IMG/VR virus record: IMGVR_UViG_3300012936_002700
Location: 1 to 54,265 of that record
Reading direction: 5' to 3' (one strand)
Length of the DNA: 54,265 bases
Origin: a virus
The first letter of the stretch is position 1. Each line of letters begins with the position of its first letter. Made by a program: the position numbers and the translations under genes. The notes beneath the pieces are model-generated. The model had not been told where the DNA came from, did not search any database, and saw only the letters and a list, made by a program, of their open reading frames with translations. Below, piece by piece: positions 1-16,148 of this stretch.

Positions 1-586
1 ATTTTTTTAGTATCTTTTTATTTGCAGGTTCCATGTAAGGTTCACCGCCTTTAATACTTAGATAACGTAAGTTCATAAATGGTGTAGGATCCTCAAACAA
101 TCTTTCTATAATTTGCTCACTTTTATTTGTGTAACCAAATTCTGGATTGTCAATTCTTCTATGATATGGATTACCATTTTTAGTAAGTTTCAATTCATCT
201 TTTACCCATGCACTTGAATTGATTCCATCACACATACGACATTTTAAATTACAAATATTACTCATATTAAATTCCAAAAAGTAGATATCTGTGAAGTTTT
301 TGGAGTAATCATTTTTACTACCTACAAGCATAGGATTCAAAATATCACGAAAGAATAATCTTCTACTATGTCCTACTGCGGCTTCTTTTAAAGCACATTG
401 TTGGCACTCGGGCGGTAACACTCCACTACGGATAGAATCACGTGTGTATGACGCTGTAATGCTGTTTAAAAGGTCATTTAAAGGCGTTTGTAGCACGTTT
501 CCGTAACGTTTTGTATACACTCCGTCCGGCACAATATCGCCGTTAAAGCGTACCAAAATACTATGCCAAGGTGCGTAACATTTCAT
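1..586 (-). CDS. Twitch-type radical SAM protein (C-terminus beyond window edge)
   Basis: The frame is open from the ATG at 586 to the window edge, so the C-terminus is missing. The product starts MKCYAPWHSI and carries an N-terminal cysteine pair (PECQQC), then the radical SAM cluster motif CNLKCRMC about 130 residues in, then a GGEPY motif that in this superfamily contacts S-adenosylmethionine. Proteins of this layout bind a [4Fe-4S] cluster, cleave SAM and often have a second cluster in a twitch/SPASM domain; the substrate cannot be read from sequence. It overlaps the kinase-like gene upstream by 26 bases and is the third radical SAM gene of the same minus-strand run, which suggests a shared pathway. 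Confidence 0.85.
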   Translation of the reverse strand, partial: MKCYAPWHSILVRFNGDIVPDGVYTKRYGNVLQTPLNDLLNSITASYTRDSIRSGVLPPECQQCALKEAAVGHSRRLFFRDILNPMLVGSKNDYSKNFTDIYFLEFNMSNICNLKCRMCDGINSSAWVKDELKLTKNGNPYHRRIDNPEFGYTNKSEQIIERLFEDPTPFMNLRYLSIKGGEPYMEPANKKILKK

Positions 587-1034
587 TAAATTTCTCTCCA
601 AAAGCAGATTCTAAATCGCTATGTAGTTTATCCAAAATAGTTGTGGGTTGATATATTCCTACGTTATCCCAATCCACCATTTCCATTTTTCCAGAGCCAT
701 CTGGACTTATAATTATATTACTCAAAACCCAATCAAAGTGTGCGTATGGTTGCGTTTCTTCTATATTTTTTAAACAAAAATTATACACTTGATTTATAAA
801 CAAGTCCGTATGTTCGAACTTACTTGCTGGTGTTCCTAATATAGTTTTACAATCTATAAACATCTTACCGTTAGCACAACCACTATTAATTATGTAGCCA
901 GGACGTATTTCGTCCATTATTTCAATATGCTCTTCAAAGTACTCTAAATTTTCAAAGTCCCATTCCTTCCTATAAAAATTAGGACCTTTGTAAACACGTC
1001 TTTGTTTTTCTTTATTTTCTTTTATTAAGTCCAT
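561..1034 (-). CDS. Very small kinase-like protein (APH/LPS-kinase fold motifs)
   Basis: This 157-residue protein has a catalytic-loop-like motif HFDWVLSN (residues 99-106) followed by MVDWDNVG (119-126). These resemble HxDxxxxN and the metal-binding DxD of aminoglycoside/choline phosphotransferase-type small-molecule kinases. The N-lobe is much shorter than in ordinary kinases of this fold (250-300 residues). It overlaps both flanking radical SAM genes (26 and 23 bases), so it is translationally coupled to them and probably acts on the same product. The kinase assignment rests on two motifs only; substrate and activity are unknown, and a degenerate kinase is possible. Confidence 0.6.
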   Translation of the reverse strand: MDLIKENKEKQRRVYKGPNFYRKEWDFENLEYFEEHIEIMDEIRPGYIINSGCANGKMFIDCKTILGTPASKFEHTDLFINQVYNFCLKNIEETQPYAHFDWVLSNIIISPDGSGKMEMVDWDNVGIYQPTTILDKLHSDLESAFGEKFNEMLRTLA

Positions 1035-2064
1035 ATGCTTCTGCTACTTCAGGAATGTAATCCTGTATGTGGCATCCTCTTAATTCATCAAATGTTTTTA
1101 TCCAATGCAAAAATGCATTTTGTTCTATTTGATCTGGTTTCTGATTTACCCAATACTTAAATTTTTCTGGCGCAAACTTTTTAATTGTGTCAGGTGCATT
1201 CTTTGAGTCAAAGTATGTAGGATGAAAAAGTAAATTATCAAACACATCAAACTCATTAGTCTTTGCCCATGCAACTATATTATCGTAGTCGTGCAAGTTC
1301 ATTATTTGTATTGTTGGACCAACACTTTTGTATTTTACAAATTCTGCCCAACGTAACATATTTGTTTCTACAGTTTTCCAATCACTACCCCAACGTATGT
1401 AATCATTTACTTTGCCTATACCGTCAATACTAAAACACATATTAACAGTATCAAAACGTTTTAGTTCTTCATAAACATTAGGATTTATAATTGTAGCATT
1501 AGTATTGAATCTTATTTCAACACTGTTATCTAACTTTTTAAGAAACTTGTGTAATCCTCTTACCATCATAGGTTCGCCACCTGTTAAGTACACTTCTCTT
1601 AGTTCGGGCAAACTTGCAAGATAATCTCCACGTTCTTCTGTGTACCAATCGTAATTAGGAAACTGTTCATTACCCCATGGGGATTCCATACCCTTTTTAA
1701 GTAATTCTTTATGATCCTGATTGACTCCGCTTGACGTAGCAGGATAACACATAGTACATTTTAAATTACAGTTACTTCCAAAACGTAAATCAAGATGACT
1801 TACTCCTGGACCGTATTGTCTTGGTTTTGTGCGTTGACTGCCTTTGCCTGACGCTTCCTGTATTTCACACTTTTTACAAGCATCTGGAAATACACCGTCC
1901 TCAAATTTTTGCACTGCGTTTTTAAATACTTTACTTTCACGCCATTCTTCTATAGTGTGTGTTTGTATGTTTTCTTTGTTTGTAGGTTCATTACTTATAC
2001 AACACAAACGGAATTCACCAGAAGTTCTAATACAAACTTGATGGTCTAAATATTTACACTTCAC
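1012..2064 (-). CDS. Twitch-type radical SAM protein
   Basis: About 350 residues. The radical SAM motif CNLKCTMC lies about 100 residues in, followed by LTGGEPMMV. N-terminal cysteines (VCIRTSGEFRLCC and ACKKC) fit an accessory twitch-type Fe-S cluster. An in-frame ATG exists at 2118, but I prefer the GTG at 2064: it has a GAGG ribosome site nine bases upstream, overlaps the preceding gene by only 11 bases, and gives an N-terminus (MKCKYLDH) matching that of the neighbouring paralogue (MKCYAPWH). The protein probably carries out a radical modification in the same pathway as the other two radical SAM proteins; its substrate is unknown. Confidence 0.85.
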   Translation of the reverse strand: MKCKYLDHQVCIRTSGEFRLCCISNEPTNKENIQTHTIEEWRESKVFKNAVQKFEDGVFPDACKKCEIQEASGKGSQRTKPRQYGPGVSHLDLRFGSNCNLKCTMCYPATSSGVNQDHKELLKKGMESPWGNEQFPNYDWYTEERGDYLASLPELREVYLTGGEPMMVRGLHKFLKKLDNSVEIRFNTNATIINPNVYEELKRFDTVNMCFSIDGIGKVNDYIRWGSDWKTVETNMLRWAEFVKYKSVGPTIQIMNLHDYDNIVAWAKTNEFDVFDNLLFHPTYFDSKNAPDTIKKFAPEKFKYWVNQKPDQIEQNAFLHWIKTFDELRGCHIQDYIPEVAEAYGLNKRK

Positions 2065-3037
2065 TACAAGTAACCTCACATATTTTAAATCGTTTGTCGC
2101 TTGGTTGTAGTAGAACATTTGATTCTATTATATCTTCTATGTTAGTATCATTTACGTTGGGCCACTGCACACTGTTACATTCTTTAGCATAAGGACTATC
2201 AGGATTCTTAGCATATCTATCACTCAGCAAATAGCAACAAGGAAACACTTCGCCAGTATGACTAATTTGTATTTTTTGTTTCTTTTGCCATTTACAAGTA
2301 ATACAACCTTTGTCTAAACCTTTTTCTAATAAACCTTCTAATCTTACAACATTGTCTAAATGTTTCTTTTCATACTTGATAGTTCGTGCTTCTTCTTTTT
2401 TAGTAGCCTTGAATTTTTCTACTGCTTCAGATACAATACTATTCATAGCAGTAAATGTATATCCGCCATTTATATCAAAAACTTTGAATCCCATATCTTT
2501 AGACAGTTGTTCGCATTTTTCTATTTGATGTTTGTTATGATCAAATACAAGCATACGCCATCTTGCTAAACCGCCTGCGTCTATAAATGCTTTAGCATTA
2601 GCCATTACATTATCCCATACCACATGACGTCTATACAAATGATTAGTATCTTCTAATCCATCTATACTAAATGTAATTACTGCTTGTGGAAAATTACGTA
2701 ATTCTTGTGCAATCATTCTATACAAATTAGGTTTACCTATGCCTCCATTTGTGTGAATCATAATTTTACATTTTAATTTTTTTGCATATTTTAATGCAAA
2801 TGGTAAATTAGGATTCATAAAAGGATCTCCATAACTACCATTAAATATTATTTCTTCAACTCCTTTGGCATCATCTACTATACGTTTCCATGTGTCCATT
2901 GACATATGCCCAAGAGGCATATTAGGATTGACTTTTACACCATCAATATTGCGTGAACAGTTACCGCACATCGCATTACAATGACTTGTAAAATCAACCA
3001 CTATTGTTTTAAGATCTTTTTTAGACAAGAACCGCAT
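2054..3037 (-). CDS. Radical SAM protein with SPASM-like C-terminus
   Basis: 327 residues. The cluster motif CNAMCGNC lies near the N-terminus (residues about 20-27), and the middle of the protein has the usual radical SAM barrel pattern, for example VITFSIDGLED. The C-terminus has further cysteines (GCITCKWQ, GEVFPCCY, CEVTCSEV) typical of SPASM or twitch auxiliary clusters. It is the first gene of the minus-strand radical SAM run and is divergent from the oxygenase gene at 3095. Families with this architecture include peptide-maturation and sugar- or cofactor-modifying enzymes; nothing here identifies the substrate. Confidence 0.85.
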   Translation of the reverse strand: MRFLSKKDLKTIVVDFTSHCNAMCGNCSRNIDGVKVNPNMPLGHMSMDTWKRIVDDAKGVEEIIFNGSYGDPFMNPNLPFALKYAKKLKCKIMIHTNGGIGKPNLYRMIAQELRNFPQAVITFSIDGLEDTNHLYRRHVVWDNVMANAKAFIDAGGLARWRMLVFDHNKHQIEKCEQLSKDMGFKVFDINGGYTFTAMNSIVSEAVEKFKATKKEEARTIKYEKKHLDNVVRLEGLLEKGLDKGCITCKWQKKQKIQISHTGEVFPCCYLLSDRYAKNPDSPYAKECNSVQWPNVNDTNIEDIIESNVLLQPSDKRFKICEVTCSEV

Positions 3038-3094
3038 ACTGTATTTACCGCCAAAATAGTAGCATTTAACTTACATTGGTAGGTAAATATTACT
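3038..3094. promoter_or_regulatory. Divergent intergenic region with paired GGTAAATA boxes
   Basis: The 57-base gap separates two divergently transcribed genes. GGTAAATA lies four bases before the minus-strand ATG (3042-3049 reversed) and five bases before the plus-strand ATG (3082-3089). The box differs by one base from the GATAAATA late-promoter element seen elsewhere in the window. It is either a pair of late promoters giving almost leaderless transcripts or a translation-related motif; the sequence does not decide. Confidence 0.4.
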
Positions 3095-3811
3095 ATGCAA
3101 GAATTGGAACAATACCATAACGAACACGGCATAATTAAGCAAGAATTATATCCAGATACCTTTGACCCTAAGTGGTTAGTGATGGAAAGTGGCTGGGGAT
3201 ATTTTCATCTAAGTGCATTAGATAACCAACCATGGAAAGAAATGCACAAAGAAGCAGAAGCACTTGCAGATAAGTTTCATTCACACAGAGAAGACAGTTA
3301 CGGTAAAGGTTGGAAAAGTTTGACACTACACGGACTTGACGAAGACACACAAAGTCTAAATCAATATGGGCAAAGAGAAGAAGTACTCAAACAATTAGAT
3401 TGGACTTGGGTGGCAGAGAAATGTCCTATTACAAAGAATTTTTTAACAAATGTTTGGCCAGCAGAATTTTTAAATCGTGTAAGGTTTATGTATCTTGAAC
3501 CTGGCGGATATATTCTTCCGCATCAAGATCGTAAAGATGAAGAAAAGCGTTTAAGTGTTTGTAACATAAGTTTGAATAATCCAGAAGGCTGTCAATTTGT
3601 TTACAAAGACAAAGGCATAGTGCCTTTCAAAGACGAAGGTAGTGCATTTTTAATGGACATTAGTAACGTACATTCTGTTTGGAATAAAAGTGATAAGCCA
3701 AGAATACATATGATTATACATTATGAACTTGGTAGACGCACCAGGGATATGTTTTACACATTAAGAGAAAGTTTCTACTCCAATAGGAGAGCAATCAATG
3801 GATTGGAATAG
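3095..3811 (+). CDS. Aspartyl/asparaginyl-hydroxylase-like 2-oxoglutarate Fe(II) oxygenase
   Basis: 238 residues with a double-stranded beta-helix oxygenase signature. The iron ligands look like H143 and D145 (LPHQDR) with H193 (NVHSVWN), and R203 (KPRIHMIIHY) is the probable 2-oxoglutarate anchor. Such enzymes hydroxylate or otherwise oxidise a substrate using O2 and 2-oxoglutarate. It is the first gene of a four-gene plus-strand run, overlapping the next gene by 14 bases, and sits opposite three radical SAM genes. The substrate is not evident. Confidence 0.75.
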   Translation: MQELEQYHNEHGIIKQELYPDTFDPKWLVMESGWGYFHLSALDNQPWKEMHKEAEALADKFHSHREDSYGKGWKSLTLHGLDEDTQSLNQYGQREEVLKQLDWTWVAEKCPITKNFLTNVWPAEFLNRVRFMYLEPGGYILPHQDRKDEEKRLSVCNISLNNPEGCQFVYKDKGIVPFKDEGSAFLMDISNVHSVWNKSDKPRIHMIIHYELGRRTRDMFYTLRESFYSNRRAINGLE

Positions 3812-5258
3812 TTTATCAGTTGATCGTTACTACGAAGACCTTGATGGCAATAATGATGTTGGCATAGGTATATTAGATATCACACGAGATATAGATAACA
3901 AGTTTGTTGCAAAACGCACACTTGATATGACCTACTTTTATATCAATAGAATGATTAAAATGAATTTGTGTTCATATGTAGGACATCATAAAACTGTAAA
4001 AGAAATATTAGAACTTGCAATTATTGAAGGCAAAAAATATTGTATGGTTGCGTGTCAAGGTTTGCTTTTATATAGAGGACCAAGTTTAGTACAAAAAAGT
4101 TTACAGTATGCAGAAAACAATCCTGAATTTTTTGTAATAGGGCATATTATGGACAAGCAAGGGCAACATCATTATCTTACTAAAGGTGCATATCCAGGAT
4201 TACACAGACAATATTTGTTTGTAAATTTGAACAAATGGGTAGAATTAGGACAACCAGACTTTGATGAACTTGGTGTGTTTACAGACAGGCCAAGAAAGTA
4301 TCGCAATGTTGAATATAGCAAAGAAAAAATACACAGTGAATACACACCTAAGTGGGTAAAGGGTGCAGAAGGTTATATGCAAAGCACTATCACTGCTGAT
4401 GGCAGTAACTGGATAAATCTTGCCGCTGAAAACAATATTACAATAGATAACCTTGATAATGATATGCGTGAGTGCAAAGTATTTTTATATCCGTATAATA
4501 AACCACATATACTTGAACAAGTATGGTTAGATAAAACTAATGACAAACTTGTAGATCAATTGAATTACAGTCAAAAGGCTTGGATAAGAAAATTAGGTTA
4601 TCAAGAAGAAATTGAAAAAAATAGAGTTTATGCATTTAATACAGAAAGACTTTCAGGTGAAGGCATTAGAACAAATGGCAAACATATAGATCATTTGTTT
4701 AGTGCGGCCGCTGGATTCAAACCTCTTGCTATTTTAAATGCTAATGGTTTCCATGAAGGTACAACCGTGCATTACTTTGATTGGTGTGAAGCAAGTTTAA
4801 ATTTTAAAAAGCATTTACTTGAAACTTGGGACGGTTATGATTTAGATAAATGGCTCTTAGAACACGATTTAACTTATAACTTCAGTAGCACTTACCGTGC
4901 AAACTATAAAGAATTTTGGCAACAAGAACTAAAAGAGTTTGGTGGAAGTCTTGCATTTCAAAGATTATGGTCAAGATATAAAACTTTAAAACACGAATTT
5001 CATGTAATAGATATCGTAACAGAAAGCAATAAGTTATTTGATCTAATTGATAATGTACATGGTACAAAGGTATTATGGACTACAAATATATGGTCAAGTG
5101 AAATGCTTCAATGGAATGTTCAACCTGAAGAACTTGAAATGCACTACAAAAAATTTAAAAGTAGAATAAAAAATTTAATTGTATATGGACACGATTATTG
5201 TGCAATAGATCTAAATGATAGTATAAAAGGAGATTACACTCATGTCAGATTTGCATGA
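3798..5258 (+). CDS. Large protein of unknown function
   Basis: 486 residues, not recognised. It starts at an ATG with a good ribosome site (GGAGAGCAATCA). The first half has alternating strand/helix blocks with motifs such as KKYCMVACQG, FFVIGHIMD and GLHRQYLFVNLNKW, which vaguely recall a nucleotide-sugar transferase (GT-A-like) fold. The second half is rich in aromatic and charged residues. No signal peptide or membrane segment is apparent. It overlaps the oxygenase upstream and the PP-loop gene downstream, so it belongs to the same operon. A glycosyltransferase role is only a guess. Confidence 0.7.
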   Translation: MDWNSLSVDRYYEDLDGNNDVGIGILDITRDIDNKFVAKRTLDMTYFYINRMIKMNLCSYVGHHKTVKEILELAIIEGKKYCMVACQGLLLYRGPSLVQKSLQYAENNPEFFVIGHIMDKQGQHHYLTKGAYPGLHRQYLFVNLNKWVELGQPDFDELGVFTDRPRKYRNVEYSKEKIHSEYTPKWVKGAEGYMQSTITADGSNWINLAAENNITIDNLDNDMRECKVFLYPYNKPHILEQVWLDKTNDKLVDQLNYSQKAWIRKLGYQEEIEKNRVYAFNTERLSGEGIRTNGKHIDHLFSAAAGFKPLAILNANGFHEGTTVHYFDWCEASLNFKKHLLETWDGYDLDKWLLEHDLTYNFSSTYRANYKEFWQQELKEFGGSLAFQRLWSRYKTLKHEFHVIDIVTESNKLFDLIDNVHGTKVLWTTNIWSSEMLQWNVQPEELEMHYKKFKSRIKNLIVYGHDYCAIDLNDSIKGDYTHVRFA

Positions 5259-5943
5259 TATGGCAAGACCTCATTGGGACCTTCCTATATATAAACAAGA
5301 AATTCTTACGAACAATGTAGTGTTCAATTATTATGACTGTGATGTATGTGTAAGTATCAGCGGCGGAATAGATAGTGCTTTACTATTGTATAACGTTGCA
5401 TTACATTCTCCTCGTGATATTCATGTGTATACTTTAGCAAATAATGATCTAATGCTTAAAAATGTAACTGCCGCGACAGCAGTAGTTAACAAAGTAAGAG
5501 AACTTACAAACAATCCAAATATATATCATACAGTGATGCATATGGAAGGATCTAAACCAAACGGTGGCGAAGTTATAGGACATAGAATGCGTAAACACTT
5601 TGGCAAATTTATGGAAGTGTGTTATATGGGTGTAACACAAAATCCACCACTTGATGTAATGAAGAACTGGGACGTAGCAGATTGGAGTCACAAGTACAGA
5701 GACAATCTAACAAAAGAATTTGAAGTTTTACCTAACGTAGGCAATATCTATATGCCTTGGACAAATGTACACAAAAAATATATTGCGGCTATTTACAGAG
5801 CCCAAGGATTATTAGATACACTATTTCCTGTTACATATAGTTGTGAATGGTATGCTAAAGACGGCAATGATCCTGGTATGGACCATTGTAAAAACTGTTG
5901 GTGGTGTTTAGAACGTTATTGGGGGTTCAATAGATATGTATAA
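5242..5943 (+). CDS. QueC-like PP-loop ATPase (7-cyano-7-deazaguanine synthase-like)
   Basis: 233 residues. The PP-loop motif SISGGIDSALLL (residues 38-49) activates a carboxylate with ATP. The C-terminus has C201, C216, C219 and C222 in the order YSC...CKNCWWCLER, which matches the zinc-binding tail of QueC. QueC converts 7-carboxy-7-deazaguanine and ammonia to preQ0. FolE, QueD and QueE are also in this window, which makes a preQ0 role attractive. Caveat: this gene is in the plus-strand radical SAM/oxygenase island, far from the other pathway genes, so another PP-loop amidating or adenylating role is possible. It starts in the overlap with the upstream gene behind a GGAG site. Confidence 0.65.
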   Translation: MSDLHDMARPHWDLPIYKQEILTNNVVFNYYDCDVCVSISGGIDSALLLYNVALHSPRDIHVYTLANNDLMLKNVTAATAVVNKVRELTNNPNIYHTVMHMEGSKPNGGEVIGHRMRKHFGKFMEVCYMGVTQNPPLDVMKNWDVADWSHKYRDNLTKEFEVLPNVGNIYMPWTNVHKKYIAAIYRAQGLLDTLFPVTYSCEWYAKDGNDPGMDHCKNCWWCLERYWGFNRYV

Positions 5944-6478
5944 AGTAGTACAGTGGAATGAATCAATTGATCTAACAGACTACTACAATAGAGCAAAAGA
6001 AAAAGGCTTTGTTAATAATGCAAGTCGTGAAATGCTTATTGATTGTTTTAAGAATGAACGAGAAATGATATTGTTTTTGTTATACGAAGATGATACAATC
6101 ATAGGCACACAAGTATTACATACATTTGATGAGTTAGGTCCTGATGCTTGGAGAGCAGGAAGAACAAGTTTGCTTGTACCACCTTTAGGCAAAGGCAGAA
6201 GTATTATTACAAAGTTTCAAAATCATACAGATCAATTTTTACATCCTGCCGTTATTAATTTTGTGACAGAACGCAAGGGTAAATTATATTCAACTACAAA
6301 TATGAATCCAGAAGCCAAACAAAATCAATCACACTTAATATATTTTCCATTGTTAGAAAAGATGGGTGTAGTTGATAAAGTTAAGGATATGGAATATAGA
6401 TATACCAAACAGTCAGTTTGGAAATTTAATTTTAATCGTTTTTGGGAATTGTATAACTTATTTCCTAAATGGAATTAA
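5936..6478 (+). CDS. Small protein, possibly GNAT-like acyltransferase
   Basis: 180 residues. Alternating segments such as MILFLLYEDDTIIGTQVLHTF followed by a loop RAGRTSLLVPPLGKGRSIITKF are loosely compatible with a GNAT acetyltransferase, but the acetyl-CoA motif is not clear. It overlaps the QueC-like gene by eight bases and is the last gene of the plus-strand run. Its TAA shares bases with the stop codon of the convergent fibre gene, so there is no room for a separate terminator. Function unassigned. Confidence 0.6.
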   Translation: MYKVVQWNESIDLTDYYNRAKEKGFVNNASREMLIDCFKNEREMILFLLYEDDTIIGTQVLHTFDELGPDAWRAGRTSLLVPPLGKGRSIITKFQNHTDQFLHPAVINFVTERKGKLYSTTNMNPEAKQNQSHLIYFPLLEKMGVVDKVKDMEYRYTKQSVWKFNFNRFWELYNLFPKWN

Positions 6479-7773
6479 GCAATCATTGCTACCCACGCCG
6501 AGCCTGTCCAGAACACTGGGTAAGGTGTTGATCCACTGTAACTTGCTGGATCCCAATTAGTCTTGTTAGCAACTGCAATCATTCCAATAACTGGAGTAGA
6601 CGGAGCCGCCGCTTGTGGTTCTAATGTCATTACACCTTCAATATCAATAGTTGATCTTGCACTTGTTCTATTAATAGCAAGTTGACCTTGACTGTCTAAT
6701 ACCATTAGTTTTGGAACTGGTGTAGTATTAGTTCCTGCGTTAGTAATAAATTCTATTTGTCCTGGTGCTTGGTCGTCTGCAATAGTACCGTTTGGATCTG
6801 TTCTAAATAAAATTACAGAAGAAAGTACTTTAGTTCCAAATGTACCAAAGTCTGGATCAAATGCAGTTGCACTGATTTCTCCAATGTAGTTACCAGCAGT
6901 TACTTTAACTTCGTTTCCGCTATCTGGGAATCCACCATAGTAACCATTTAATGTCATACCAGAAATGTTTGCACTTGTGGCACCATTTAAACTGTTAATT
7001 CTTACCGCACTTGATTCGTCGGAGTTCCATACATTAAGTACAGTGTCATCAGTTTCAGTTGGACCACTGATGTTAACTTCTAATTGTGTTGAAAGAAGTG
7101 TGTCGCCAGTTACACTAAACTGACCATTGTTAATAATTACTTTACTGTTTACTGCGTCAACAAGTAATGTTGAATCATCACCAAATACTGAACCTTTAAT
7201 ATCTGCTGTCAAGTTAGTAATTGAAGCACCAGCAAGATCTAAATCACCTGGTACAAATAATGCTCTTGCATTATCCCATATTAAGTATTGTCCTTGTGTA
7301 GGAGTATCACTACCTGATACACTAACATCACCTAAGTTGTCAATGCTTTTTGATGCTAACTGAGCATCTAAATCAAATGATAAAAATGCTTCATCACCTG
7401 CTACCCAACCACCTGCGCCGCCGTTAGCAGTTGCATCATATTTTAAAACTTTGTTTGTAGCAACGCCTGTTACTGCGTCTACGTTAGTTAAATCATTAAG
7501 AGTTTGTGCGATAGACAGTGTTTCTGCCTGCCATCTTGCATTAGGAGTATTCCACTGAAGTACTTGACCGTTTGCTGGAGTAAGAGTGTCTTCTACATCA
7601 GTTAAATTTTGAATTGAAAGGTTAGGGTTAATTTGGACACCGCCAGTTGTTACACCGTCACCTATCCATAGTTTACCTGTATCTGTTACGAAAATGGGTT
7701 CACCCAATGCTGGGTTTATGCCCGTCAGTGCCGCTCTTTCGGCCTCTGTACCTCTTCTAATTTTTAATGCCAT
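6475..7773 (-). CDS. Tail/head fibre protein with MTD-like N-terminal domain
   Basis: 432 residues. The N-terminus (LKIRRGTEAERAALT and GEPIFVTDTGKLWIGDG, residues 3-42) is the short anchoring domain found at the start of many phage fibre and major-tropism-determinant-like proteins. The rest is rich in Gly, Thr, Ser, Asn and Val, and the periodic NLGDVSVSGSDTPTQGQYLIWD-type segments are typical of fibrous shaft repeats. It is probably a virion adhesin or fibre. A CATAAATAC late-promoter box lies about 33 bases upstream of the ATG, consistent with late expression. The receptor-binding part is presumably C-terminal (SGSTPYPVFWTGSAWVAM). Confidence 0.75.
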   Translation of the reverse strand: MALKIRRGTEAERAALTGINPALGEPIFVTDTGKLWIGDGVTTGGVQINPNLSIQNLTDVEDTLTPANGQVLQWNTPNARWQAETLSIAQTLNDLTNVDAVTGVATNKVLKYDATANGGAGGWVAGDEAFLSFDLDAQLASKSIDNLGDVSVSGSDTPTQGQYLIWDNARALFVPGDLDLAGASITNLTADIKGSVFGDDSTLLVDAVNSKVIINNGQFSVTGDTLLSTQLEVNISGPTETDDTVLNVWNSDESSAVRINSLNGATSANISGMTLNGYYGGFPDSGNEVKVTAGNYIGEISATAFDPDFGTFGTKVLSSVILFRTDPNGTIADDQAPGQIEFITNAGTNTTPVPKLMVLDSQGQLAINRTSARSTIDIEGVMTLEPQAAAPSTPVIGMIAVANKTNWDPASYSGSTPYPVFWTGSAWVAMIA

Positions 7774-7805
7774 ACTCGCTTACTCCTGAAGTGCTTTTGC
7801 TATAT

Positions 7806-7814
7806 GTATTTATG
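7806..7814 (-). promoter_or_regulatory. T4-type late promoter box
   Basis: Minus strand reads CATAAATAC, matching the TATAAATA late-promoter -10 element of T4-like phages. It sits 33 bases upstream of the fibre gene start. Confidence 0.6.
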
Positions 7815-7841
7815 CCAAATACTTTAATTCAATAATATACA

Positions 7842-8159
7842 TTATTTACGCATTTTGGCGTTTTTAAACACTGTAGCAGTGCCCTTTTGTATGTCTTGCT
7901 TTATCTTTCTACTGTCTAAAGCAAAGTCTACGGACTTAATTTTAGGTCCATATTCATTGAAAAGGTTCCTTATGTCCTTCTCAAAACGCTTCTGCGTAAT
8001 GTTAGGCTTACACTCTATGATCCACTTTTTCCTACTTGAGAACGTAACTTCAATGTGTTCCAGGTATTCAAGGGGGATAGTTTTAACTTCTATGCCCTTG
8101 AATACTTCTGGCCAATGTCTGATTACGTCTTCAGGAAGTTTTAATTTCCTGTAGGCCAT
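7842..8159 (-). CDS. Hypothetical phage protein
   Basis: 105 residues, not recognised. It is basic, with a central IKSVDFALDSRKIKQD segment, and lacks signal peptide or membrane segments. The gene lies four bases after the 200-residue gene and before the fibre gene, in the likely virion-gene block. The conserved look of the block suggests a structural or assembly role, but there is no motif evidence. Confidence 0.6.
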   Translation of the reverse strand: MAYRKLKLPEDVIRHWPEVFKGIEVKTIPLEYLEHIEVTFSSRKKWIIECKPNITQKRFEKDIRNLFNEYGPKIKSVDFALDSRKIKQDIQKGTATVFKNAKMRK

Positions 8160-8163
8160 TTAT

Positions 8164-8766
8164 TTAGGCCTTGCTTTTTTTCTTAGTAGGTACAAGTTCC
8201 TCTGCTTGACGTCTTAATTGTGCCGCTTCTTTGCTTAATCTATCCGCTTGTGAACGGTATGATTTAGCAAGATCTTCATCACTCATAACATCATTTGATG
8301 CAGTTGCTACTGGCTCGTTTGATGGAGCAGTTTCACTTGCAGACGCTGGTGTATCAGTTACTGTTGCAAGATTAGTTGCATCTTCTGATAAAGCAATATC
8401 TTTTATGCTTACACCTTTTTGCTCTGCAATCAGTTTGTTCAACTCGTCCAATGTTACTGTATCAGTAGAAGTTGGAGTCATTGTAACCTCTGATGTAGGA
8501 ACTTTCATTAGTTTACCTTGTGCATGAAAGCGAGATAGCATAACACTACCGTCTGAAAGACGTGTACGTGCCATTGCTTCTGCAAGTTCATATGCATCTT
8601 GGCCCGATGGTGAATCTACTAATTGCATTAAAATATCATGATCTGAATCTGTTAAGTTTTCAGTTGATACCACTAAACAATTTTCGTGATCACCTGGGAT
8701 TGTTCTATACGCAACAGCAACTTTTCTTTTGTTGCTATTGAGTCTACCTATGTGCTTAATAGCCAT
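8164..8766 (-). CDS. Hypothetical protein, possible virion component
   Basis: 200 residues. A compact N-terminal region of about 95 residues (AIKHIGRLNSNKRKVAVAYR, then LVDSPSGQDAYELAEAMA) is followed by a Ser/Thr/Ala-rich linker. The C-terminal part (DEDLAKSYRSQADRLSKEAA) is charged and predicted to form a coiled coil, ending in a Lys-rich tail. This layout is common in phage structural or scaffold-associated proteins. It is two bases from the preceding gene, in an operon with the Ala/Pro-rich 114-residue protein. Function unknown. Confidence 0.6.
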   Translation of the reverse strand: MAIKHIGRLNSNKRKVAVAYRTIPGDHENCLVVSTENLTDSDHDILMQLVDSPSGQDAYELAEAMARTRLSDGSVMLSRFHAQGKLMKVPTSEVTMTPTSTDTVTLDELNKLIAEQKGVSIKDIALSEDATNLATVTDTPASASETAPSNEPVATASNDVMSDEDLAKSYRSQADRLSKEAAQLRRQAEELVPTKKKSKA

Positions 8767-8768
8767 AA

Positions 8769-9113
8769 TTATTCTCCTTTAGCAACTGGAGCCGGCTCGC
8801 CTGTTAGGGCCGCTGAAGCATCTGCATCGGCTACTGGTGCCGCTGGTGCCGCTGGTGCTTCACCTTCTTTTGCCTTTTGTGCTTCGGCTTGTTGCTTCTG
8901 TACCTGCGATAGGAATGTATCCAACTTATTATAAGTTGTTCCTACAGCCTGTAATTCGTTTGCTTTGAATGCGCCACGTTGAGTAGCGACATCGATTACT
9001 GTTCTAAGAGTGTTTAGATCTTGAACAGTTAAGTCAACCATTCCTGCTGGACCTGGTGCACCCGCTGGTGCTGATCCTGCCGGAGCGGCTGGTGTTGTTT
9101 TATTATCAGACAT
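8769..9113 (-). CDS. Ala/Pro-rich small protein
   Basis: 114 residues. Low-complexity Ala/Pro/Gly stretches at both ends flank a helical core (VDLTVQDLNTLRTVIDVATQ...LQAVGTTYNKLDTFLSQV). The core is conserved-looking and could be a small helical oligomer. It is preceded by AGGAGATATGACAT and followed by the 200-residue gene. Similar small proteins occur among T4-like marine phage virion genes, but this is a context-only inference. Confidence 0.6.
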   Translation of the reverse strand: MSDNKTTPAAPAGSAPAGAPGPAGMVDLTVQDLNTLRTVIDVATQRGAFKANELQAVGTTYNKLDTFLSQVQKQQAEAQKAKEGEAPAAPAAPVADADASAALTGEPAPVAKGE

Positions 9114-9150
9114 ATGTCATATCTCCTTTGTTTTTAAAGTACATACTTAA

Positions 9151-9702
9151 TTACTTAACTGATTTTAAATAATCGATCATGTTTTCTGGCTTTGTTTCAA
9201 TATATGGATCATCGTCCAATCCGTCGTTATTGATACCTGGCTCTTCCCACCATTTTTCAACAACGCCGTCATTAATAACACACATATATCTCCAACTTCT
9301 ATTACCAAAACCTCTGTGATTTTTTCCAATCAGCATACCCATAAAGCGAGTAAAGTTACCGCTACCATCTGGGATTACTTTCACATTCTTAATGCCAAGC
9401 ACTTCTGCCCATGCATTCATTACAAATGTGTCGTTTACTGAACAACAGTAAACTTCATCAATATTCATTGACTTAATCTGTTCATAATTTTGTTCAAAAC
9501 TTGGTAGTTGTGTCGATGTGCAAGTTGGTGTAAACGCACCCGGTAGACTAAACAATACTACTCTTTTACCTTTGAAATAATCATCTGTAGTCTTTTCAAC
9601 CCATTTGCCTTCATCAAAACTGCAACCTTGTTCTAAAACTACGTCACCTTCTCTTACCTTGAAAGTTGTTTTTGGAATCTTAAATCCAACTGTCATACTC
9701 AT
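9151..9702 (-). CDS. Peroxiredoxin (Prx5/AhpC-TSA family)
   Basis: 183 residues. The motif PGAFTPTCTSTQLPSFE (residues 54-70) contains the peroxidatic cysteine C61 in the diagnostic TPxCT context. Further family features are VYCCSVND (about 88-95) and a conserved tail with RSWRYMCVIND and VEKWWEEPG. Prx5-type enzymes reduce hydrogen peroxide and organic peroxides, usually with thioredoxin or glutaredoxin as electron donor. A phage copy would be an auxiliary gene protecting the infected cell from oxidative damage. It has an AGGAGAATGAG ribosome site and appears full-length. Confidence 0.9.
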   Translation of the reverse strand: MSMTVGFKIPKTTFKVREGDVVLEQGCSFDEGKWVEKTTDDYFKGKRVVLFSLPGAFTPTCTSTQLPSFEQNYEQIKSMNIDEVYCCSVNDTFVMNAWAEVLGIKNVKVIPDGSGNFTRFMGMLIGKNHRGFGNRSWRYMCVINDGVVEKWWEEPGINNDGLDDDPYIETKPENMIDYLKSVK

Positions 9703-9728
9703 TCTCCTTAGTTAGTATTACGATGTAA

Positions 9729-10004
9729 TTATTTGTATTTTAAAAGAGGACAGGCCAAAGCGAAATAAGAAAGTTCCTTTGGGTCTTCAAATCCAATTTT
9801 AATTTTATTCTGTAAACTTTTGTCGTCACCTGTGCCTACTGCTTTTCCAATATAGTAACGACTTTTACAATTCTGTTCAATCCAATTAATTATTGCTTTG
9901 TCAAGATTATAACTTTGTTGAATATCCATAAACTCTAAATGAGGTCCGGGATATTCTAATCTTCTAATGCCAAAAAAGTTAAGCGGATTTGGTTTCATTT
10001 TCAT
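9729..10004 (-). CDS. Hypothetical small protein
   Basis: 91 residues, not recognised. Visible features are FFGIRRLEYPGPHLEFMDI near the N-terminus and a C-terminal hydrophobic block ELSYFALACPLLKYK. It overlaps the end of the VWA-domain gene by 26 bases and probably depends on it for translation. Two in-frame ATGs (10004 and 9998) are possible starts. Confidence 0.6.
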   Translation of the reverse strand: MKMKPNPLNFFGIRRLEYPGPHLEFMDIQQSYNLDKAIINWIEQNCKSRYYIGKAVGTGDDKSLQNKIKIGFEDPKELSYFALACPLLKYK

Positions 10005-11280
10005 AGTGTGTTGTTACTCCAAATGGTGCTTCAATATCTTTATTGTGATGTGAGTGAATTACAAAAATTGTATCACAGTAATCTGCATCACCCCAACTGT
10101 CCCAAGTATAACCATCTGTAAACATAATAAACTTCTTAGGAACAATATCATTGTCCTTCATATATCTCCAATTAGCATCAAAGTCTGTGCCACCACCACC
10201 TACAACTTCATAGGATAAAAGGTCATCGTTAGTAGCATCAAAGTCTTGCTCATTGTAAACTTCTGTGTCAAAGCACCAAATTTTAATTTTGTAATCTTGA
10301 TACTGTGACATAATACCTTGTACTTCACTTAAAAATACCTGTGCTTGTTCATTGCTAATAGACCCACTCATATCAATAGCAATACATAAATCAATAGTGT
10401 CTTCAAAGTTAAGTCCTGGAAGGATAGCACCAGTGTGCCAACCTTTACGTGAAGGACGACTAAATGTAAAGTCGTTTCTTATAGTAGATTGAATCTGTTG
10501 TTGCAATAGTTCACGCCAATTCATTTTAGGCTCAGTAAGTTCCTTAATCATTCTCTGAATTTCTTTAGGAAGATTACCAGCACCTGTTGATTGTGCGGCA
10601 CTAATCATAGACTCTTTTACTTCATCACGTATCTTACGTAATTCATCTTTGCTATAAGATGGAGGGCCTTTCTTTTTATCTTTTTTATCACCACTACCTT
10701 GTGCGGCACCATTACCATCTTGATCCCAGTCTACGTGTTCATCAAGTAATTGACCAAGTTGTTTTAATTCTTCTTCATCATATTTTTTGTAAATGTCTTC
10801 ATATACATCTTCTGATGTCCAACCTTCATATTTAAAGTCTTGGAAAATAGGAATATCTGCAGGCTTTGTACCAATGCCATCTCTTACAAGTAAATTGTTT
10901 ACAATATAGTCAGCGGCAATATTGTGTATTTGTGGATCACGTTTCTCTCTACGTGTCATATGATCATAAACACAATGAAGTATTTCATGTGCAATAACAA
11001 ACTCAACTTCTTTGTTACTCATTTTAGCAAAGAACGGAACACTGTAAAACATATGTCTGCCATCTGTAGCGGCAGTAGGACACCAGTCAGTTGCTTCAAC
11101 CATCTTAAGACGTGTAGCCATGTTACCAAAGAATGGATGTCTCATTAGCAGGCCAACACGAGCAACAATAATACGGTCAAGAACTTCTTGACGTAATTCG
11201 TCAGTAACTTCTACTTCTGGAAGATTTTTAATCTCTTCCCATCTATCTAAAACTTCTTGATCTTGTGTTTGTGTTGTCAT
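9979..11280 (-). CDS. VWA-domain/putative metallopeptidase protein (DUF2201-type)
   Basis: 433 residues in two parts. The N-terminal half has a zinc-metallopeptidase-like motif HEILH (residues 98-102, in VEFVIAHEILHCVYDH). The C-terminal half is a von Willebrand factor A domain with the MIDAS motif CIAIDMSGSIS near residue 303 and FTDGYTW further on. A basic/acidic linker rich in Lys and Asp joins them. VWA proteins of this type work with MoxR AAA+ ATPases, and the MoxR gene is directly upstream. The pair probably assembles, inserts cofactors into, or remodels a target. The promoter at 11309-11337 is a perfect sigma70 match, suggesting early expression. Confidence 0.85.
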   Translation of the reverse strand: MTTQTQDQEVLDRWEEIKNLPEVEVTDELRQEVLDRIIVARVGLLMRHPFFGNMATRLKMVEATDWCPTAATDGRHMFYSVPFFAKMSNKEVEFVIAHEILHCVYDHMTRREKRDPQIHNIAADYIVNNLLVRDGIGTKPADIPIFQDFKYEGWTSEDVYEDIYKKYDEEELKQLGQLLDEHVDWDQDGNGAAQGSGDKKDKKKGPPSYSKDELRKIRDEVKESMISAAQSTGAGNLPKEIQRMIKELTEPKMNWRELLQQQIQSTIRNDFTFSRPSRKGWHTGAILPGLNFEDTIDLCIAIDMSGSISNEQAQVFLSEVQGIMSQYQDYKIKIWCFDTEVYNEQDFDATNDDLLSYEVVGGGGTDFDANWRYMKDNDIVPKKFIMFTDGYTWDSWGDADYCDTIFVIHSHHNKDIEAPFGVTTHYENETKSA

Positions 11281-11308
11281 GTGCCTATTCCTTATTGTTT
11301 ATAATATT

Positions 11309-11337
11309 ATTATAGTATATTTAATTGGATTTGTCAA
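11309..11337 (-). promoter_or_regulatory. Consensus sigma70 promoter for the VWA gene
   Basis: On the minus strand TTGACA (11337-11332) and TATAAT (11314-11309) are separated by exactly 17 bases. Both hexamers are perfect. The ATG at 11280 is about 29 bases downstream. This is a strong host-type early promoter. Confidence 0.85.
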
Positions 11338-11347
11338 CCAAAAGAAA

Positions 11348-11377
11348 TGGGGTAGCATACCAAAATATACTACCCCA
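11348..11377 (-). terminator. Rho-independent terminator after the MoxR gene
   Basis: The inverted repeat TGGGGTAG ... CTACCCCA (8 base pairs, 14-base loop) lies seven bases after the MoxR stop codon. On the minus strand it is followed by TTTCTTTT. It sits between the MoxR gene and the next promoter, which fits an intrinsic terminator separating two transcription units. Confidence 0.7.
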
Positions 11378-11383
11378 AAATGT

Positions 11384-12469
11384 TTAAGAAGCCTGAGCGG
11401 CCGTTACGTACTTGCCAAACTTCTCATGGAATTCATCAAAGTTTGGTGTTTCGTCTGGATCAATCGGTAGTTCATATTGTGTAAGAGCAAGTTTAATACC
11501 CATTACAACCAATTCCGTATCGAAATTGTCCATTGCAAAACGTAAAAAATTATTAACCTTAGTATCAAACTTTTTATCGTTTTTATCGCTCGCCTCTTTA
11601 AGTTCATAGCAGAGTGAGACAGTTAAGGAATACATGGCACTGATTTCTTTTGTCTTCAACTCTTTTACCTTACCATCCAAAATTTCCGAAGGATTCGGAA
11701 GTTGTGATGCCATCTTTCGATGAGCCATGAACTTCACAGCCAGGCCTTCGCCTACTGCTCCACTTACCAGATCGGTAGTGGTATTCTCGTCATCGTCATC
11801 TTCGAGTAACTCGGATACGAATGACCAAGAACGCGGTGTTGCAAAAGATCTACTTGGACTCTTAGGATCAAAGTCATACAAGTCTTTCTTTGCAAATGTC
11901 AAGTAACCTACAACGTCTGGGTGAATCTTATTATCAGATGCCCAAGCAAACCAATCATCAAAGTCCACTTTAAGTTCTAAGTGAACAAATCTGTTTGCCA
12001 ACGGAGCAGGCATTCTGTAAGTAACACCTTTATCAGCGTCTCTGTTACCAGCGGCAACTATTAATACATTGTCCGGTAACTTATACTGACCAACCCTTCT
12101 ATTAAGGATAAGTTGATAAGCCGCCGCCTGTACAGCCGGTGCCGCAGAATTCATTTCATCAAGAAACAAAATAATAGTCTTATGTTTCTTTGCCATTTCT
12201 GCACTTGGCAGTTCTTGTGGCGGTGCCCATTGCATTGTATTATCGTTAGCCGCATAATACGGGATACCTTTAATATCTGTAGGTTCCCATAATGACAATC
12301 TTACGTCAATAACATGAGCCTTTAGTTGTACACCAATTTGGTGAATGATGTCCGACTTACCAATACCAGGTGCCCCCCAGATAAAAAGTGGACGTTGTTT
12401 TTTGAATGCCCTAAGAATACTCTTTTTAGCATTATTTGGACTAATAGTCCTTGTAGCAATGTTTTCCAT
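11384..12469 (-). CDS. MoxR-type AAA+ ATPase
   Basis: 361 residues. Walker A is WGAPGIGKSD (residues 31-40) and Walker B is IILFLDEMNSA (about 99-109), followed by a sensor-like NVLIVAAGNRDAD. These are the marks of the MoxR/McrB-like AAA+ group. MoxR ATPases usually partner with VWA-domain proteins, and the VWA gene is directly downstream. The ATPase probably powers conformational change or metal insertion in an unknown client. It has its own promoter (12509-12537) and an AAAGGAGTACAAC ribosome site. Confidence 0.88.
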   Translation of the reverse strand: MENIATRTISPNNAKKSILRAFKKQRPLFIWGAPGIGKSDIIHQIGVQLKAHVIDVRLSLWEPTDIKGIPYYAANDNTMQWAPPQELPSAEMAKKHKTIILFLDEMNSAAPAVQAAAYQLILNRRVGQYKLPDNVLIVAAGNRDADKGVTYRMPAPLANRFVHLELKVDFDDWFAWASDNKIHPDVVGYLTFAKKDLYDFDPKSPSRSFATPRSWSFVSELLEDDDDENTTTDLVSGAVGEGLAVKFMAHRKMASQLPNPSEILDGKVKELKTKEISAMYSLTVSLCYELKEASDKNDKKFDTKVNNFLRFAMDNFDTELVVMGIKLALTQYELPIDPDETPNFDEFHEKFGKYVTAAQAS

Positions 12470-12508
12470 GTTGTACTCCTTTTAGTTTCAGTGCCTTATT
12501 ATGTTTAT

Positions 12509-12537
12509 ACTATAGCACCTTTATATTAAAAGGTCAA
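12509..12537 (-). promoter_or_regulatory. Sigma70-type promoter for the MoxR gene
   Basis: Minus strand TTGACC (12537-12532), 17-base spacer, TATAGT (12514-12509). Ten of twelve hexamer positions match consensus. It lies about 40 bases upstream of the MoxR ATG. Confidence 0.75.
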
Positions 12538-12566
12538 CCAGAAAATGTATTATTTTGGTAAAAAAG

Positions 12567-12959
12567 TTAATTTAATTCTTCATCAGCACGTTTGAGTGCT
12601 TTGGATAAGCCGTATTTCTTAATATCTCCGCTAAAAAGATGCAGTTCGATTGATTTCTTTTCGTCGAAAACGGTTATTTGATGCTTGTTCAAATAGTAAG
12701 GGCAAGTGATAAATCTATCTAACCAAATTACAGAATTGGTTGTAAGTTCAAAGTCCTGTGGGAAAGGAACATCATAACATTGCAAATCTAATTCGCCTGT
12801 AAGATACAAGAATCCTTGATCTGTTAATCTTAATCCTCCGTCTCCTTTAGAACGAGTGTTTTGCCACCACTCCGACATATACTTCTTTACATTAATATCA
12901 CTTACTGCTTTGTCGGATTGTTTTAAAAAGACTTTTGTGTATGTCTCTTTCCAGTTCAC
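12567..12959 (-). CDS. Hypothetical protein
   Basis: 130 residues, not recognised. The N-terminus is charged and helical (NWKETYTKVFLKQSDKAVSD). The middle has a beta-rich segment (RLTDQGFLYLTGELDLQCYD) and an aromatic motif FITCPYYL. The stop/start overlap with the SNase gene (they share base 12959) indicates coupling. It looks like a conserved phage early protein, without a known function. Confidence 0.6.
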   Translation of the reverse strand: MNWKETYTKVFLKQSDKAVSDINVKKYMSEWWQNTRSKGDGGLRLTDQGFLYLTGELDLQCYDVPFPQDFELTTNSVIWLDRFITCPYYLNKHQITVFDEKKSIELHLFSGDIKKYGLSKALKRADEELN

Positions 12960-13432
12960 TATTTTTTCTTTTCCATTAGTTTAACTGCGGCATCATGATC
13001 TTTTTTACTTACTACGCCTTCACGTAAAAGTTTTTCTCTATTTGCCATATGCTTCATTTGGATTTCTTCTTTGCTACCGCCGAAGTATGCAACTGCGTGT
13101 CCGTCTGCAATCATCATATCTGTAAGTCTTTCTTTATCAAACAAAAAGTCTCCTAAGATACGTCCAAACTTTCCTTTTTTATCTGAACCACTTCTATCTA
13201 TTTCTGTTTTAAGAATTTGCATACTACCTGTAGGCATATATTTCTTAACATAGTCTTTAGCCGTTAATCCAAATAATTTTTCTACTTTATCTCTTGTGCG
13301 TGATTCAGGGGTATCAATCCCCATCATTCTTACTCTTTCTTTATGAAGCCAAACTCCAAACCCTAAATCTATATCAACATCAACTGTATCTCCGTCAACT
13401 ACTTTTAAGATTTTACATTTATATTCGTACAT
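12959..13432 (-). CDS. Staphylococcal-nuclease-like (thermonuclease) protein
   Basis: 157 residues with the SNase OB-fold signature VVDGDTVDVDIDLGFGV near the N-terminus, then RVRMMGIDTPESR carrying the catalytic Arg and Asp of the family, and the later MMIADGHAVAYFGG block. SNase enzymes hydrolyse DNA or RNA with calcium. There is no signal peptide, so it would act inside the cell, perhaps in host nucleic acid degradation or phage DNA repair. It lies five bases downstream of the 96-residue gene and overlaps the next gene by one base. Confidence 0.85.
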   Translation of the reverse strand: MYEYKCKILKVVDGDTVDVDIDLGFGVWLHKERVRMMGIDTPESRTRDKVEKLFGLTAKDYVKKYMPTGSMQILKTEIDRSGSDKKGKFGRILGDFLFDKERLTDMMIADGHAVAYFGGSKEEIQMKHMANREKLLREGVVSKKDHDAAVKLMEKKK

Positions 13433-13437
13433 TAGTA

Positions 13438-13728
13438 TTACCCCTCTACTACTATTTCCCCCGATACTAATTTAACTACAGTAAAGTCTTGTACATTAAA
13501 GAGATCGTTTAATTTTTTTGCTAAATTGTGTGCGTGTCCTGGATTACTAAAAGATACTTTTTTATATTTAGGTCCAGGAAAACTTGATAATGAATTTTGC
13601 GTTTTTAAGTTAAATGGCTTCCCTTGGTAAAAGACTGCCCAGATAGCCTCTGCCGCCAGAATCTGATCTGACTTATAAGTCTTTTTATCAATGTGTTCTA
13701 ATAACACTGTTGGTTTAGGTCTACTCAT
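13438..13728 (-). CDS. Hypothetical protein
   Basis: 96 residues, not recognised. It is basic, with AAEAIWAVFYQGKPFNLKT and a C-terminal strand-rich block (NVQDFTVVKLVSGEIVVEG). A GATAAATA late box is 35 bases upstream, so it may lead a late or middle transcript with the SNase gene. Confidence 0.6.
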   Translation of the reverse strand: MSRPKPTVLLEHIDKKTYKSDQILAAEAIWAVFYQGKPFNLKTQNSLSSFPGPKYKKVSFSNPGHAHNLAKKLNDLFNVQDFTVVKLVSGEIVVEG

Positions 13729-13762
13729 TTATATACGTGTCCTTTGTTATAAACTACGTATA

Positions 13763-13770
13763 TATTTATC
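13763..13770 (-). promoter_or_regulatory. T4-type late promoter box
   Basis: Minus strand GATAAATA, 35 bases upstream of the ATG at 13728. Spacing matches the other late boxes in this window. Confidence 0.55.
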
Positions 13771-13831
13771 TGATTAATAAGGAAATTGTATAATAAAGTT
13801 AGTAGATAATTCGCCGGTTAAGGTGCTTGTA

Positions 13832-14083
13832 TTAGTCCTTAAATCCGCCACCGTCCATTTCGACGTTGATAACTTCTTGTTCGCTTTGTGTTTGTTTGTT
13901 AGAAATAAACTGTTCCATGTCGCCAAGTAATCTTGCATTAATCTGTCCAACAGTCAATGCAAGTACCTTAGCGTCAGCAATGCTTAGACGTACATCTTTG
14001 CTATTGCTTTGTTCAGCAACTTTTACTTGCTGAAAAAATTTCTCTAATGGAACTGTATTAATAGGCTCTTTTGTCATCTGCAT
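13832..14083 (-). CDS. Hypothetical small protein
   Basis: 83 residues, mostly helical (VPLEKFFQQVKVAEQSNSKD, VRLSIADAKVLALTVGQINA) with an acidic C-terminus. The gene overlaps the upstream gene by 26 bases. A second in-frame ATG at 14077 is nine bases from an AAGG site and may be the real start. Not recognised. Confidence 0.6.
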   Translation of the reverse strand: MQMTKEPINTVPLEKFFQQVKVAEQSNSKDVRLSIADAKVLALTVGQINARLLGDMEQFISNKQTQSEQEVINVEMDGGGFKD

Positions 14084-14546
14084 TAGCCTTACTTAATTCT
14101 TGACGCATTGTAACTTCGTCTTTGAATGGTCCTTTAGAAGTATAGTTTTCAATAGTTACAAGTTTAGGACAAAAACTTCTTACCCAACCCTTGTCAAATT
14201 TAATAATGTAATATCCTGCACAATATAAACTTTTACTTTTTTTGCTTTTTGTAAACAATGGTAACTTACGTTTTACATCATACATACTGTTATGTGGCAC
14301 ACAAGAAGTAGGAAAATTATGTACTTCTTTATCGCCTGTTGGAACAGTTTCTTTATCTTTGATACCCCATTCGATATCTACATCTTTAACAAGTTGTTTT
14401 TCGTTTTCATAAAACTTTGTGAATGTATTGCAACAATACATAAATGTTTTATCTTCTTGTTTAGAAAGTGTACCGATACGTTCGCCATCTTCCTCTACAA
14501 TCCAAAACTTACCTGCTACAATCGGGTTTGCTTTTAAATTTGTCAT
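14058..14546 (-). CDS. Hypothetical phage protein
   Basis: 162 residues, not recognised. The N-terminus (NPIVAGKFWIVEEDGERIGT) is beta-rich. Later parts include CAGYYIIKFDKGWVRSFCPK, and several cysteines (YCCNTF, LYCAGYY) are scattered without a metal-site pattern. It directly follows the ParB-like gene with no gap, so they share a transcript. The sequence style is that of conserved T4-like marine phage early genes. Confidence 0.6.
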   Translation of the reverse strand: MTNLKANPIVAGKFWIVEEDGERIGTLSKQEDKTFMYCCNTFTKFYENEKQLVKDVDIEWGIKDKETVPTGDKEVHNFPTSCVPHNSMYDVKRKLPLFTKSKKSKSLYCAGYYIIKFDKGWVRSFCPKLVTIENYTSKGPFKDEVTMRQELSKANADDKRAY

Positions 14547-16084: not shown

Positions 16085-16119
16085 ATTATACTCCGTAAAA
16101 TACTTCTATTATTGTGTAT

Positions 16120-16148
16120 AGTTTACTTGACTTTTGCTTGATTGTCAA
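16120..16148 (-). promoter_or_regulatory. Weaker sigma70-like promoter upstream of the exonuclease
   Basis: Minus strand has a perfect TTGACA (16148-16143), a 17-base spacer and TAAACT (16125-16120), which matches the -10 consensus at four of six positions. It lies at the end of the upstream oxygenase gene, about 36 bases before the exonuclease start. Confidence 0.5.

Follow-up and report, generated by a model that had tools for sequence, protein, structure and literature searches.

An enzyme island beside the tail-fibre gene of marine jumbo-phage-like viruses, with a possible role in decorating the virion or host surface

Why would a phage place several radical S-adenosylmethionine (SAM) enzymes, a miniature kinase, an oxygenase and further tailoring enzymes side by side? 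The question is raised by the left end of IMG/VR virus record IMGVR_UViG_3300012936_002700, which was analysed whole, at 54,265 bases (hereafter the window). An earlier note, made from the sequence alone, had read the eight open reading frames (ORFs) there as a likely tailoring cassette with no known counterpart among described phage systems. This interpretation stands in part: the core genes are inherited together, evolve under purifying selection and are swapped as sets at one slot, in an order that recurs in dozens of contigs, as expected of a cassette and not of a chance neighbourhood, but two of the eight genes are optional and this type of neighbourhood has already been described. We tentatively read the locus as a conserved, late-expressed island whose product may be a modified glycoconjugate that decorates the envelope of the infected host, or the virion, and affects recognition.

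Gene Content of the Island

The eight ORFs are present at the positions and on the strands originally listed, with a divergent gap of exactly 57 bases (3038-3094). The island and its flank are laid out as follows.

2-601, minus strand: rSAM1, radical SAM protein of the N-terminal-twitch type, incomplete at the contig end (200 of ~375 aa)
561-1034, minus strand: KIN, minimal protein-kinase-like fold of 157 aa
1012-2118, minus strand: rSAM2, twitch-domain radical SAM protein
2054-3037, minus strand: rSAM3, radical SAM protein with a C-terminal SPASM domain
3038-3094, unstranded: divergent junction, 57 bases, with a late-promoter-like TAAATA box on either strand
3095-3811, plus strand: OX, 2-oxoglutarate (2OG) oxygenase of the aspartyl/asparaginyl-beta-hydroxylase family
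3798-5258, plus strand: U486, predicted two-domain protein with a GT-A-like N-half and a Rossmann/methyltransferase-like C-half
5242-5943, plus strand: PP, PP-loop ATP pyrophosphatase, QueC-like but not QueC; accessory
5936-6478, plus strand: GNAT-like acyltransferase; accessory
6475-7773, minus strand: FIB, tail-fibre-type protein (Mtd_N; PF18454, 35.5 bits), the right edge of the island
7842-12469, minus strand: conserved phage backbone genes c14, c13, c15, c17, c20 and c24, the anchor for the slot test

FIB converges on the GNAT gene with a 4-nt overlap of the gene ends, and the order of the six backbone genes is identical across the backbone contigs read.

Recurrence, Gene Order and Selection

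Scans of IMG/VR located U486 at 55 loci and the kinase at 80, together on 96 distinct contigs of up to 356 kb; the 80 kinase contigs are partly redundant and hold 49 distinct proteins. KIN abuts rSAM2 in 74 of the 80, and where a KIN contig has enough flank, U486 (55/58) and OX (54/58) are nearly always present. The island runs from rSAMd, OXb, rSAM2b, rSAM3' and MTa toward rSAM1, PROPa, PROPb, KIN, rSAM2 and rSAM3; this latter block is divergent from OX, U486 and a set of variable genes, after which the island ends at the tail-fibre gene. PROPa and PROPb, which are missing in the window's own clade, form a pair of beta-propeller-like proteins; they contain repeated PYG motifs and belong clearly to no family (e.g., L036:4539-5681 and L012:4750-5988), and a propeller searched against PDB sequences gave no match. 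The closest relative contig has eight radical SAM matches within 33.9 kb, and the window carries just the right-hand portion of an island that is larger and continues in relatives. A complete island with both PP and GNAT is present in IMGVR_UViG_3300020463_002011, a contig of 33.9 kb.

The earlier note had advised a search for the same gene set in other phage genomes. The core recurs across IMG/VR; the PP-loop and GNAT genes are variable accessories. Most relatives lack PP, and in most the place of PP and GNAT is taken by hydroxylases, short-chain dehydrogenases/reductases (SDRs), an adenylation protein and a flavin halogenase.

Two observations show that the eight ORFs are real and not there by chance. 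Their order recurs in dozens of contigs, and purifying selection acts on them, with a ratio of nonsynonymous to synonymous divergence (dN/dS) of 0.05-0.26 against the three nearest relatives (L049, L004, and L007). The lowest ratios belong to rSAM2, OX and U486 (0.05-0.09), rSAM1 is at ~0.1, and KIN and GNAT come highest, at up to 0.25-0.26. In the comparison with L047, a more distant relative, PP reaches 0.36 and GNAT 0.43. Because identity to a single relative differs from gene to gene (66-94%), alleles probably recombine.

The Tail-Fibre Slot

With backbone gene c20 as the anchor, contigs were counted if they showed FIB plus 3 kb or more past it. Among the 35 such contigs, 10 have the present module, 24 have different representatives of these enzyme families, and one has none that was recognised. 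In nine long records, strong radical SAM matches are confined to a single stretch of ~16-50 kb, where the PF05118 hydroxylase family co-locates; in one contig of 268 kb, for example, the stretch is 150-171 kb. A tenth record, where the contig ends within the slot, gave neither radical SAM nor PF05118 matches. Sequence comparison places the island next to the tail-fibre gene, in a hypervariable slot of a marine jumbo-phage lineage; the backbone is jumbo-phage-like, and its nearest matches are PA5oct, XaC1 and Atu_ph07.

Sister slots encode adenylation enzymes, TctA, inosine monophosphate dehydrogenase (IMPDH), asparagine synthase, fatty acid desaturase, nitroreductase and a B12-binding radical SAM protein. 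In two of them (L203 and L185), a TctA-type tricarboxylate transporter, with a TctC-like neighbour recognised by eye, adjoins an adenylation enzyme. A minimal adenylation protein of 223 aa (PF00501, partial) is paired with a GNAT by the tail fibre in L046 (16679-17350) and in relatives, and L026 has a uroporphyrinogen decarboxylase (HemE) gene within the island (13454-14389).

Upstream regions of window genes are enriched in a (G)ATAAATA box (e.g., at 7774-7841, from 36384 on, and from 43715 on). Counts of the TAAATA box, which are inflated by the relatedness of the sequences, are 67 of 67 distinct homologues before FIB and, among 64 distinct divergent junctions, 63 toward the rSAM operon and 36 toward OX, against a background of 8%. 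The T4 consensus late promoter (TATAAATA) was found once versus 7.5 expected, and so is not enriched. By this box, the island would be expressed late.

Predicted Functions of the Core and Accessory Proteins

Families were assigned with Pfam, PHROGs and NCBIfam profiles. Of the three radical SAM proteins, all previously described as twitch-type, rSAM2 matches the twitch model NF033640 at 225.4 bits (cut-off 170), and the rSAM1 fragment, cut by the contig end, matches the same model at 106.8 bits. The description does not extend to rSAM3, which scores 44.2 bits, below that cut-off, and has a radical SAM core (PF04055, 46.9 bits) followed by a C-terminal SPASM domain (PF13186, 23 bits), and is therefore not twitch-type. 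The CxxxCxxC cluster motif is kept in 38/38 full homologues of rSAM1, 59/59 of rSAM2, and 75/77 of rSAM3. The true start of rSAM2 is probably V19, at ~2064, as backed by the homologue alignment; the overlap with rSAM3 would then be ~11 nt, as in relatives.

OX is a clear PF05118 member (56.2 bits, cut-off 22.6), with the Fe-binding H-x-D/E conserved in 57/57. PP barely exceeds the cut-off of the QueC family PF06508 (23.5 versus 22 bits) and falls far below that of the QueC equivalog TIGR00364 (14.9 versus 150.3 bits), so that on sequence it is QueC-like only; SGGxDS is present in 10/10 sequences, and PP also has a C-terminal C-x14-C-x2-C-x2-C motif. The GNAT-like protein matches PF21926 and PF13420 weakly, under cut-off, and its homologues are 30-87% identical.

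KIN matched no family in profile searches. An alignment of 29 sequences shows the motifs HxDWVLSN (catalytic) and (V/I)DWDN, and HxD....N is kept in all 60 distinct full-length homologues. The structure model (predicted local distance difference test score, pLDDT, 95.5) is that of a complete small kinase and matches kinase structures (Foldseek E 2.6e-5), with lanthipeptide kinase domains, RIO kinases and WbdD (TMq 0.64) at the top. KIN is thus modelled as a protein-kinase-like fold with an HxD....N loop and a metal-binding Asp, and its activity is predicted. WbdD and the class III lanthipeptide kinase domains are its nearest solved folds among kinases acting on small substrates or peptides; KIN differs from them in being a stand-alone protein of 157 aa with ~11-13% identity.

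U486 was modelled at pLDDT 80. Its N-half matches glycosyltransferases in BFVD weakly (E ~3e-4 to 8e-4), and matches of the protein to PDB structures are also weak (best E 4e-3). Three uncharacterised phage proteins match it over the full length (E 2e-23 or better). PDB sequences gave no match beyond lysozyme hits that are noise, and a pattern scan of 84,980 species genomes returned no relative. In contig L010 (257-1714), U486 seems chimeric, with an N-half resembling that of L021 and a C-half resembling that of L004, which reflects either recombination or mis-assembly.

Proposed Role and Alternative Explanations

We infer that the core enzymes act in one pathway on a common intermediate; the substrate and the direction, toward host or virion, are our suggestion. 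In this scheme, the radical SAM enzymes and 2OG hydroxylases would carry out unusual C-H chemistry on the shared intermediate, the mini-kinase would phosphorylate it, and U486, with its GT-A-like and methyltransferase-like halves, could transfer or cap a sugar-like unit. The resulting glycoconjugate, on the host envelope or the virion, might alter recognition (e.g., by superinfection exclusion), and the exchangeable enzymes (PP, GNAT, halogenase, SDR, and adenylation protein) could generate chemical variants.

A glycan product is preferred because of a bacterial contig, L143 (JAUHVL010000001.1), in which a UDP-glucose/GDP-mannose dehydrogenase, a GT2 glycosyltransferase and a PMT_2 protein are encoded next to rSAM, PP and OXb homologues. 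The contig comes from a bacterial metagenome-assembled genome; at 20-17236, close to ribosomal genes, it has seven radical SAM genes together with the QueC-like PP-loop gene, OXb and these sugar-related genes. Cellular relatives of rSAM2 are otherwise distant (21 loci, with best segments at 22-39% identity), and only L143 is a rich island; it is a possible cellular counterpart of the phage locus. The GT-A-like half of U486, the fold match of KIN to WbdD (an O-antigen chain terminator), and the NTP-transferase-like and HAD genes carried by island relatives were counted as further hints of a glycan. The reading also draws on the co-inheritance, slot and selection data, on the late box shared with FIB, and on pelagimyophage host recognition clusters, where tail fibres occur with glycosyltransferases and radical SAM cassettes (PMC7029224).

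Several observations weigh against this reading, which we hold with less than even confidence. The GT-A assignment is weak, with no PDB structural match below E 1e-3; the C-half of U486 is without an obvious SAM motif; no classical lipopolysaccharide (LPS) glycosyltransferase was found in the core module; and the KIN fold also matches lanthipeptide kinases, which act on peptides. Some slot relatives have adenylation enzymes, class-IV aminotransferase, asparagine synthase, fatty acid desaturase and TctA transporters, which would also suit small-molecule metabolism. Moreover, fibre and island co-diverge little more than the control (partial Mantel 0.41, versus 0.35 for island and backbone), so that no specific link to the fibre is shown.

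An alternative that we consider unlikely is a natural-product pathway, yielding a diffusible compound (a modified amino acid, peptide, or aminosugar) that acts on competitors, grazers or host metabolism. The enzymes are of kinds that tailor natural products: flavin halogenases related to RebH/PyrH and to phage VirX1, the minimal adenylation protein and amino-acid-type hydroxylases matching cis-4-proline hydroxylase, with class III/IV aminotransferases, the TctA transporter and the B12-binding radical SAM protein in sister slots. However, we saw no carrier protein, nonribosomal peptide or polyketide synthase (NRPS/PKS), or gene for a short precursor, and a free metabolite leaves unexplained both the late box shared with the fibre and the fixed location beside the fibre. 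A conserved small substrate gene, for which the earlier note had advised a search, was not found in the module, where nearly all junctions overlap or leave gaps of at most ~130 nt. A cluster for a ribosomally synthesised and post-translationally modified peptide (RiPP) was rejected on the same ground, a distant precursor being possible.

In a further alternative, virion proteins, chiefly the adjoining fibre itself, would be the substrate of hydroxylation, radical SAM cross-linking, phosphorylation and glycosylation. The island adjoins FIB; some relatives have a co-directional PF05118 hydroxylase gene inserted between FIB and c14; the TAAATA late-type box occurs at both FIB and the divergent junction; and the weak structural matches of U486 include a viral-capsid glycosyltransferase and a galactosyltransferase acting on collagen hydroxylysine. 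Against this, most of the enzymes are strongly constrained but the fibre is fast-evolving (dN/dS 0.26-0.35), co-divergence specific to the fibre does not exceed the backbone control, and no conserved acceptor motif was identified. We rate such modification as distinctly unlikely.

Slightly more doubtful is a plastic region that gathers unrelated auxiliary metabolic genes without a common pathway. Slot content does differ strongly among more distant relatives, the genes are mosaic in their identity to one relative, and PP and GNAT come and go; yet the core order is kept, with tightly overlapping junctions, down to ~46% KIN and ~61% U486 identity, which is unexpected for a random collection. A function at the level of nucleotides is very improbable, whether as viperin-like antiviral nucleotides aimed at rival phages or as hypermodification of DNA or RNA that includes a QueC-like step. 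In its favour are weak viperin profile hits of the radical SAM proteins, their occurrence together with a kinase, and the QueC-like PP-loop protein. Against it, the viperin matches (NF038283) reach only 26.7 and 32.8 bits for a cut-off of 180, the QueC equivalog score is poor, most relatives lack PP, and neither the location nor the hydroxylases fit.

Relation to Described Phage Systems

The claim that no described phage system has this gene set holds for the core, which is without a match among isolated phages, and not for the type of neighbourhood. KIN, U486, PP and the propeller had no match among 50,697 phage records; in isolate phages, OX and rSAM3 have one weak match each, and rSAM2 has distant matches in Vibrio phages, many of them jumbo-sized. 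No description of the KIN/U486/rSAM core was found in the open-access literature.

The host recognition cluster of pelagimyophages and cyanomyophages combines tail fibres with glycosyltransferases and radical SAM cassettes (PMC7029224). Like the island, it is hypervariable, and holds tail fibres together with many enzymes seemingly unrelated to them, with gradual divergence; the present slot is likewise a hypervariable region with a tail fibre. It differs in that the core (KIN, U486, the propellers, rSAM1-3, and OX) is undescribed there, and the present backbone is jumbo-phage-like. An analogous island adjoins the tail fibre of an isolate, Pelagibacter phage Mosig EXVC030M (MT647606), at 55-72 kb. 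It is annotated with radical-SAM-type proteins (as molybdenum cofactor enzymes), Asp_Arg_Hydrox, TauD, GNAT, aminotransferases, carbamoyltransferase and nitroreductase, and is matched by the OXb, OXc, TauD, rSAM3 and MTa profiles; in contrast to the present phages, orthologues of KIN, U486, rSAM1 and rSAM2 were not found, and the genome is 141 kb. A comparable radical SAM load is carried by the T4-like marine genome TARA_ERS488813_N000010, whose 12 radical SAM genes were treated only as an Fe-S load (PMC5332604).

Island relatives also carry Trp-halogenase-family genes related to the viral flavin halogenase VirX1 and to the prnA-like genes of cyanophages, with none in the window. In P-SSM2, similar genes lie near tail-fibre-assembly genes. 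The WxWxI motif occurs in just 19 of 30 homologues, and therefore some of these may not be halogenases.

Radical SAM and 2OG-oxygenase genes of marine phages have repeatedly been reported as auxiliary, with no pathway given, whereas here a core has a fixed order, a slot and a likely expression class. It is possible, though we put this a little more cautiously than the glycoconjugate itself, that the locus represents an undescribed kind: a dedicated late biosynthetic slot at the tail fibre of marine jumbo phages, where radical SAM enzymes, hydroxylases, a minimal kinase and halogenases come in interchangeable sets and produce a novel virion or host-surface decoration. If so, phages would encode multi-step tailoring chemistry linked to host recognition, and a minimal kinase family of 157 aa and a new two-domain family, U486, found here only in phage contigs, would be added to the known repertoire.

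Elsewhere in the window, an ORF of 845 aa (38660-41197) has both deoxyribonucleotidase-like and ParB-like matches.

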